DNA of 47,549 bases, from positions 1 through 47,549 of the forward strand of contig WJKP01000031.1 in the NCBI GenBank assembly GCA_014729025.1, given 5' to 3'. The notes under the pieces are model-generated. The model had not been told where the DNA came from. It saw nothing but the letters and a program-made list of their open reading frames with translations, and did not search any database. The stretch is from Candidatus Buchananbacteria bacterium (GTDB lineage: Bacteria > Patescibacteriota > Patescibacteriia > CAIXNZ01). Made by a program: the position numbers and the translations under genes. Below are positions 45,147 through 47,549 of the stretch, in pieces; the first letter of the stretch is position 1; each line of letters begins with the position of its first letter.

Positions 45147-46813
45147 TTATTTAATTTTTTTAATTGACCCTTATTAAATATTAAAATATCCAATCTATCT
45201 TGTTCAAGTAATTGCAAATATTCATTCTGCAAATAAAAACGAATTTGGCTGGACGTATAATTATCATAATCATAACCCCATAATTCAAATACATAATTAT
45301 CCTTATATTTAGTCGGCAGACCAGTCACCCAATTGCCTTGATCAAAAGTTTCTGCCAACCAACCACCGGTCGGATACGAGCCCCAATATAAAATTTTCTG
45401 ATGCATATTTTGCCTTGTTAAATACAAATAAACTTGAAGTGTCTTGCCTTCAAATTGATAATTCGGATAATATAATCTGATAGCCAAATCAACAGCATTG
45501 CGAAACACCTGGGCGCCTTCCAAATTATCAGGCAAACTAATAAATAATAAAGTTTTATTTTGTTCATTTAAATTAATTACCTGGTGAAAATCTTGCTTAA
45601 TAACTTTTTCAGTTAATTGTCCTGCCAAATGCCAGGTGTAATTTTTATTTATTAAAGAAACAGAGAAATAAACCAGCAAACCAATAATCGCAAGATTGCG
45701 TAAAAATTTATCTTTTTTAATTTGCCAAATCAATAAACTCAATAAAATGCAAAAAACCACCGAAGGTAAATAATTATAACGTTCGCCTTCATTGGTAAAA
45801 TGGCCAAAAGCCAGAGGTAAAACAGGTAAAATTAAAATAATATAAAAATCCAGCAAAAAAGCCAGTTTAAATTTATATTTTCTTAAAACCAATAAAATCA
45901 AACTAACAATTAAAATTAATAATAAAATAAAAAATAATTTATTGGCCATAAAATAATCAGTCAATAAAATCCGCAAATCGCCATAAAAAAATAAATTAGT
46001 CAATAAAGCCACCAACATTTTAAAAATTTCAGTCAAATTAATTCTAAAAGTTTCCTCAGCATAATAACCGAAAAATAAACCAATTGCCCAATATCTGGCT
46101 AATAAATAAAATAATAAAATTGCAAAATAACCAATTACTCTGGTAATAATTTCTCGTAAAAAAAAATTGTTTTTACTTATTCCTTCATACAATTCCCAAA
46201 CTAAAATTAATAACGGCAAAGTAATGGCCAGTTCCTTGGTTAAAATTGCAATTATAAAACTTAGAATTGAAATAACAAGAAAATAAAACTTTTCTTTTTT
46301 ACGAAATAAAATATATAAATAAAAAGACAATAAATAAAAAAAAGCGGCTAATGGATCGCCCACTGCGGCTATCCAAATAATTGCCTCGCTATGATTGGGT
46401 AAAATAGCAAAAAACAAAGCTGCCAAAATCGCAACTTTATTTTTTTCTTTATAATTTTCAAATAAGGTCAAAGTCAATAAATAAATTAAAAAACAAACAC
46501 CAATATGAAAAATTAAATTAATTAAATGGTAACCAAGAGGATTTAAGCCAAATAAATTATAAGCTAAACTAAAAATCAAATTAAACATGGGCCGATAGCT
46601 GCCGCCCACGCCCTGCTCGCCAAAATAATTAGCTGAAAAATAATCAAGCAAAGAATACTGGCTGGTTTTGGTTGAATAAATCCAGTCAAAATCATCAGAC
46701 AAGAAGAAATCATTTAAATTAATTGCAAAAAAAGCTAGATTTAGCAAAATTAGACCTAAAAACAACCAAATATGAATTTTATTTATTTTTAACCCCACTC
46801 TTGACAAAATCAT
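45143..46813 (-). CDS. Polytopic membrane glycosyltransferase (GT39/PMT-like)
   Basis: Many TM helices; FFLSDDFDWIYSTK, YRPMFNLIFSLAYNLFGLNPLGYHLINLIFHIG resembles GT-C mannosyltransferases. Confidence 0.75.
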   Translation of the reverse strand: MILSRVGLKINKIHIWLFLGLILLNLAFFAINLNDFFLSDDFDWIYSTKTSQYSLLDYFSANYFGEQGVGGSYRPMFNLIFSLAYNLFGLNPLGYHLINLIFHIGVCFLIYLLTLTLFENYKEKNKVAILAALFFAILPNHSEAIIWIAAVGDPLAAFFYLLSFYLYILFRKKEKFYFLVISILSFIIAILTKELAITLPLLILVWELYEGISKNNFFLREIITRVIGYFAILLFYLLARYWAIGLFFGYYAEETFRINLTEIFKMLVALLTNLFFYGDLRILLTDYFMANKLFFILLLILIVSLILLVLRKYKFKLAFLLDFYIILILPVLPLAFGHFTNEGERYNYLPSVVFCILLSLLIWQIKKDKFLRNLAIIGLLVYFSVSLINKNYTWHLAGQLTEKVIKQDFHQVINLNEQNKTLLFISLPDNLEGAQVFRNAVDLAIRLYYPNYQFEGKTLQVYLYLTRQNMHQKILYWGSYPTGGWLAETFDQGNWVTGLPTKYKDNYVFELWGYDYDNYTSSQIRFYLQNEYLQLLEQDRLDILIFNKGQLKKLNK

Positions 46814-46829
46814 AATAATATGTTATAAT
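46801..46829 (+). promoter_or_regulatory. Consensus promoter TTGACA-N17-TATAAT with extended -10
   Basis: TTGACA 46801-46806, TGT-TATAAT with TATAAT 46824-46829, 17-bp spacer. Confidence 0.8.
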
Positions 46830-46835
46830 TATAAA

Positions 46836-46980
46836 AAGGATAAGTTAAGGCCCAGCCTCGCATTGGGCGAGGTGGCTGGGAGCTACACTGGCTCTTTGGC
46901 AAATGTCGGGGAACCGACAACAAATTACTCCGCTCGGAAGAGTGAGTAACCTTTCCCGGAAGGGAAAAAAGGAGAAGAAA
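46836..46980 (+). ncRNA. Structured 5' leader with four hairpins, three capped by GGAA
   Basis: H1 CCCAGC-CTCG/CGAG-GCTGGG (46851-46880); H2 TGTCGG-GGAA-CCGACA (46904-46919); H3 TTACTC..CTC-GGAA-GAG..GAGTAA (46925-46949); H4 TTTCCC-GGAA-GGGAAA (46952-46967); then AAGGAGAAG SD. Confidence 0.65.
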
Positions 46981-47400
46981 ATGTTGGAAAAAATCAAAAA
47001 ATCGACGATGGCGGTTATTACAGGAGTAATCCAGTTGAACAGCTGCTATGATAAGCAGCGTCATAAAATCAAGACACTGGAGTCATCGTTGAATAAACTC
47101 GGAAACCCGGGCTTTACTTTTGAAGACCCGGAACCGTTTTACCAAGACGCCGAAGATGAATTTTATTTAATCTTCATCTTCGGCACAATCCGATGGACGA
47201 CTCTGGATGCTGACACTGGCTATTCCAGTAGCTTATCGGATATTTCACTCAGCATGGTAGAACCGATTCTAGGTCGTCTTCCAAGCTTCCTAGAAGCCTA
47301 CCAAAAGGATCTGGAAAAAACGGAAGAAGAAAACAAAATGAGCCTGGAACGGCTCAGCGAAGTCGTTGAAGCGCTCAACGCCGTCTTCAGCGACAAATAA
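46981..47400 (+). CDS. Hypothetical protein (139 aa)
   Basis: ATG at 46981 preceded by AAAAGGAGAAGAAA; MLEKIKKSTMAVITGVIQLNSCYDKQ... The ORF-track start at 46903 falls inside the hairpin leader. Confidence 0.7.
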   Translation: MLEKIKKSTMAVITGVIQLNSCYDKQRHKIKTLESSLNKLGNPGFTFEDPEPFYQDAEDEFYLIFIFGTIRWTTLDADTGYSSSLSDISLSMVEPILGRLPSFLEAYQKDLEKTEEENKMSLERLSEVVEALNAVFSDK

Positions 47401-47414
47401 GCTCCACGGGTCCG

Positions 47415-47443
47415 CGAGGAACCTTTAATCCTCGCTTTTTTAT
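47415..47443 (+). terminator. Intrinsic terminator
   Basis: GCGAGGAacctttaaTCCTCGCTTTTTTA. Confidence 0.75.
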
Positions 47444-47549
47444 TTGTTAAAATTCTGAAATTATGTTTATTATTTTGCCAATTTATAATATTATTGACAA
47501 TGTGTTTTAAATTTGTTATAACCTTCTGATCATACATATCCTAATTATA

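Follow-up and report, generated by a model that had tools for sequence, protein, structure and literature searches.

Positions 46840-46896 of the window (the whole stretch of 47,549 nt analysed here, from Candidatus Buchananbacteria) are read, with a probability of about 0.6 on the strength of sequence comparison, as a copy of a so far undescribed RNA motif that acts in cis in the mRNA leaders of Patescibacteria and forms a putative binding pocket for a trans-acting partner. In these ultra-small bacteria it is followed by unrelated genes of unknown function at seven loci or more, probably at nine. The recurrence of its shape and of a nearly fixed core in that position makes it probably an undescribed gene-control RNA.

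A covarying motif with a nearly fixed internal loop

The motif consists of three stacked helices interrupted by a bulge of 3 nt and by an internal loop that is nearly fixed (WGGC ... GAGCUACACUG). Its parts are ordered as P1 (7-8 pairs, variable), the (A/U)GG side of the loop, P2 (4 pairs), a GGY bulge, P3 (7 pairs, variable), AGCUACAC and P1 again. The internal loop between P1 and P2 is large and asymmetric, and its letters are kept while the helices change. The copy in the window is laid out as follows.

46840-46896, plus strand: the conserved structured RNA motif, the GC-rich first domain of the leader, with covariance-model matches in eight other Patescibacteria loci and covariation
46843-46847, plus strand: 5' strand of P1, AGUUA, paired with UGGCU at 46889-46893, weak in the window member; 6 of 7 counted P1 pairs changed on both sides across members
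46848-46850, plus strand: 5' side of the conserved internal loop, (A/U)GG, its GG invariant in eight aligned members
46851-46854, plus strand: 5' strand of P2, CCCA, paired with UGGG at 46877-46880
46855-46873, plus strand: P3 hairpin, GCCUCGC-AUUGG-GCGAGGU, 6 of 7 pairs changed on both sides
46874-46876, plus strand: bulge GGC that separates P3 from P2; six aligned members have GGY here
46881-46888, plus strand: 3' side of the conserved internal loop, AGCUACAC, its ACAC invariant in all eight
46889-46893, plus strand: 3' strand of P1, UGGCU, covarying with the 5' strand

The first link to a relative was a 24-nt identity in a genome of the same family, found by a DNA search of class members. 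That locus has the same promoter type together with AAGGCCCAG-[hairpin]-TGGCTGGGAGCTACACTGGCTCTT, in which the letters of the inner hairpin differ and the pairing is kept, and the motif there stands before an unrelated 65-aa DksA/TraR-type zinc-finger ORF. A Moranbacteria member was added by an exact pattern scan of GTDB contigs, and three covariance models, built stepwise, were used for the later members: L064 from another order of the class (E-value 2.2e-11), L069 (1.4e-15) and L070 (4.8e-13) from another class of the phylum, L075 (7e-8), and, with weaker matches, L065 (9.7e-4) and L076 (4e-4). We count seven members as firm (the window copy, L034, L055, L064, L069, L070 and L075) and two as probable, namely L065, in which two extra hairpins are inserted in P2, and L076, in which P2 is reduced; named carriers include Ca. 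Parcubacteria (Lake Pavin) and Ca. Moranbacteria, which would put the host of the window copy among the Patescibacteria.

The distribution is sparse. Carriers make up 4 of the 381 genomes of the class draw, a count that takes in the probable L065 and leaves out three rejected weak matches, and each positive genome has one copy. Pattern scans of IMG/VR gave no true member, none of the phages searched has the motif, and plasmids gave partial matches with E of 1 or more. Several candidates were set aside: the weak model matches L066, L067, L068, L071 and L072 and the viral match L073 are apparently chance matches inside coding sequence, and the exact-core pattern matches L047-L054, L056-L058, L060 and L061 do not have the 5' half of the motif.

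The case for a maintained structure rests on the eight aligned members. In this alignment, which was fitted to the model but whose fixed anchors leave little freedom, 97.1% of cells are paired, against 77% after shuffling and at most 44% in slid controls. Changes on both sides occur in 14 of the 18 pairs (0 of 500 shuffles), and the covariation score is 0.681, against 0.264 +/- 0.044 for shuffled alignments and no more than 0.179 when partners are slid. One clear compensatory case is in P2, where CCCA/UGGG becomes CACG/CGUG in L064. RNAalifold returned the same helices from a six-member alignment with no structure supplied, although the earlier fitting of this alignment to the model biases it towards that structure. 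Helices maintained by compensatory change are what a structured cis-regulatory leader RNA should have. The loop columns behave differently from the rest, with 90% identity between members against 56% for the remaining columns. An alternative GCCCA/TGGGC pairing proposed for the first hairpin does exist locally, but the comparison backs CCCA/UGGG stacked on GCCUCGC/GCGAGGU.

Searches for a known family were negative. Rfam 15 (4227 families), which the original prediction had named as a check, gave no match to the motif at gathering score, its weak matches lying far under their cut-offs, and at permissive threshold neither the window region nor the L069 motif gave one. Covariance models from homologous leaders, suggested at the same time, matched eight other loci, and the homologous leaders covary. 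The window copy calls for caution: its P1 is weak, and nearest-neighbour energies prefer a competing local hairpin GGGAGCUA-CAC-UGGCUCUU to P1/P2, with a probability of P1 close to zero. It may be a degenerate copy, or one that folds with the help of its partner.

The transcription unit and its private hairpins

The 1.08-Mb genome, 97% complete, includes the window as its contig C19, and the leader feature lies 570-750 bases away from the contig end. Apart from the motif, the unit has the following parts.

46801-46829, plus strand: sigma-70-type promoter TTGACA-N17-TATAAT with extended -10 (TG)
46836-46980, plus strand: predicted leader RNA, its presumed start, judged from the promoter, about 7 nt past the -10 box
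46904-46919, plus strand: GGAA-capped hairpin 1
46925-46949, plus strand: GGAA-capped hairpin 2, with one bulged C
46952-46967, plus strand: GGAA-capped hairpin 3
46970-46974, plus strand: Shine-Dalgarno sequence AGGAG
46981-47400, plus strand: orphan ORF of 139 aa, 44% G+C
47414-47441, plus strand: intrinsic terminator downstream of the 139-aa ORF

The original prediction of a consensus promoter with extended -10 was well founded: 12 of 12 consensus positions match, and none of 200 shuffles gave as good a match. The perfect pattern has 30 exact sites in the genome, two of them at rRNA loci, and the reversed control pattern has none. The intrinsic terminator after the ORF makes the gene a monocistronic unit. 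Searches with the 139-aa protein against 94 other genomes from its own and related families, and against GTDB contigs, IMG/VR, phage records and the PDB, found no relative, nor did Pfam give a match above cut-off; as a way to find homologues the protein was dropped.

Some side observations concern the same unit and promoter type. The N-terminus of the 139-aa protein (window 46996-47006 to 47050) has a run of basic residues, a short hydrophobic run and LNSC, and is vaguely like a lipoprotein signal. TTGACA-N17-TATAAC at 47494-47522, at the contig end, is perhaps the promoter of another unit. Elsewhere in the genome, perfect promoters at L003 +1501, L011 (minus strand), L017 +1501, L026 +1501 and L029 (minus strand), on contigs C3, C15, C22, C47 and C53, lead into apparently non-coding, hairpin-rich transcripts that have no Rfam match even at E 0.05. 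Others (L010, L012, L013, L022, L023, L024, L025, L030 and L031) precede single ORFs with strong SDs, several of seemingly higher G+C than their surroundings; those at L012 and L013 have lipoprotein-like beginnings.

The claim that the 145-nt leader is structured and ends at a strong SD holds: its fold energy is -55.3 kcal/mol, against -40.4 +/- 3.8 kcal/mol for shuffled sequences (z -3.93). The three GGAA-capped hairpins on which the original prediction laid its emphasis are also present, with apical loops at 46910-46913, 46936-46939 and 46958-46961, although hairpin 2 has to be redrawn with its bulged C as TTACT[C]CGCTC-GGAA-GAGTG/AGTAA. They exceed expectation, in that none of 20,000 dinucleotide shuffles of the segment has more than one GGAA-capped hairpin and an 80-nt stretch with three hairpins sharing one tetraloop occurs nowhere else in the window. 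What does not survive the comparison is the repeated GGAA as a functional element. Conserved loops and covariation are shared by the homologous leaders in the first domain, but GGAA-capped hairpins are found in 0 of 8 of them, and the trio is private to the window locus. The refuting outcome named in the original prediction, a lack of conserved loops or covariation, applies to the GGAA trio and not to the first domain.

Do these loops bind CsrA? The leader has several GGA triplets, three of them in apical loops and one in the SD, and in this the window leader, by itself, resembles the leaders bound by CsrA/RsmA. A search for CsrA detected none in the genome, with control genomes positive, and the GGAA loops are missing from all eight related leaders. 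CsrA-type regulation is therefore extremely unlikely here. Given that the trio is private and CsrA was not found, the simplest reading is that these hairpins, which are statistically real, are probably gene-specific and serve, as stable GNRA caps, leader stability or spacing. Such extra hairpins around the motif would differ from gene to gene, and probably shield the leader or hold the SD region open.

Gene context and possible modes of action

All nine copies are oriented like the ORF behind them and stop 13-84 nt short of its start codon, and most of these ORFs have a clear SD. Good promoters are recognised upstream in at least four of the nine, so that the motif sits between promoter and start codon as a cis-regulatory leader RNA should. 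On the minus strand at L034, the motif core GGCTGGGAGC has an exact complement, GCTCCCAGCC, which is found 64 nt before the motif and just upstream of the -35 box; the complementary 10-mer was not seen in the other eight loci and was rejected as a shared feature. BLASTP shows no relationship among the nine downstream proteins, and one only has a domain above a curated cut-off.

Location before unrelated orphan genes might suggest the boundary of a cassette, and hence a DNA element (a recombination or cassette site) of which one strand happens to fold. This would not account for a motif that is always in sense to the gene at 13-84 nt from the start codon and, where a promoter is recognisable, between it and the SD; moreover, the searches found a single copy in each genome, and the fixed letters are confined to one side of the stem. 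We consider a DNA element most improbable. A self-cleaving ribozyme that trims the leader would fit the small conserved loop, the sporadic distribution and the unrelated downstream genes, but no known Rfam ribozyme family was matched and no pseudoknot has been shown, so that this too is very unlikely.

Stable hairpins near the 5' end, such as the 5' stem-loops of the ompA, papA and aprE leaders, are established mRNA stabilisers. The studies of these stabilisers are among the references of PMC3997798. A passive stabiliser, in which stacked hairpins, some of them GNRA-capped, block 5'-end-dependent decay and leave the SD open with no specific partner, would explain a hairpin-rich leader with stable caps, an rRNA-grade promoter and an A-rich open region around a strong SD, as well as the long hairpin that adjoins the motif in several relatives too. 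Stabilisers of the ompA type need structure, not a fixed loop sequence common to unrelated genes, yet WGG...AGCUACAC is kept across orders and into another class. On balance, a purely passive role seems rather doubtful.

The reading that we prefer turns on this same loop. An internal loop that keeps its letters while the helices around it covary looks like a binding site and favours a trans-acting partner; as far as can be judged from sequence, a ligand or protein acting in trans is what the motif most likely binds. The loop would then be a pocket for a small molecule, for a protein or for the ribosome, and its occupation would tune the translation or the lifetime of the mRNA. The controlled gene would be strongly transcribed, monocistronic and accessory. 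Counting against this reading, the downstream genes share no function, which would be unusual for a metabolite riboswitch. The lack of a consistent change in predicted SD accessibility on forcing the motif, the folding of the window copy and the weaker matches of L065 and L076 also count against it.

A stricter version has a metabolite bound in the loop shift P1 against the competing hairpin AGCUA-CAC-UGGCU and so alter translation. As in a metabolite riboswitch, the loop is fixed, pocket-like and closed by a covarying helix, P1; in addition, several members have AGCUA in the loop as well as in P1, so two alternative pairings of UGGCU are possible. The competing hairpin, however, has no compensatory change and is disrupted in some members, and it was rejected as a conserved switch. 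There is no terminator and no conserved SD pairing, and the genes are unrelated. When the motif was forced in folding with energy models, predicted SD accessibility did not change consistently, and simple SD sequestration is not supported. Thus, a strict metabolite riboswitch is possible but on the unlikely side.

Known leader RNAs and significance

Among the closest known systems to the partner-binding motif favoured here are the orphan riboswitch candidates and structured leader motifs found by comparative genomics by Weinberg, Breaker and others (e.g. PMC2864571), which are likewise small mRNA-leader RNAs with covarying helices, a near-invariant loop and no known ligand. The present motif differs from them in having no match in Rfam, in preceding genes that share no function and in having turned up in Patescibacteria alone. 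Its AGCUACAC bears a short resemblance to the preQ1-I riboswitch, from which the motif differs in helix layout and, again, in the Rfam result. No description of a native regulatory leader RNA of Patescibacteria was found in the literature searched, and a 2024 review (PMC11665869) mentions riboswitches only as future tools. Since neither an Rfam match nor a paper was found, we count the motif as a new family of structured leader RNA. The original suggestion that a new regulatory RNA controls the 139-aa protein is accordingly supported in outline, with covarying homologous leaders and no known family behind it; the GGAA loops as the functional element are not supported.

What might such an RNA do for these organisms? 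Tentatively, and we think this rather improbable as it stands, it could be a phylum-specific receptor RNA that places unrelated, rapidly replaced orphan genes of Patescibacteria under a single common signal, which might be a metabolite or a protein linked to life on a host cell. That the letters of the loop are kept across a class boundary, with unrelated genes behind them, hints at some signal or factor that acts on orphan genes in common, and the pocket-like loop offers a direct handle for identifying the partner.
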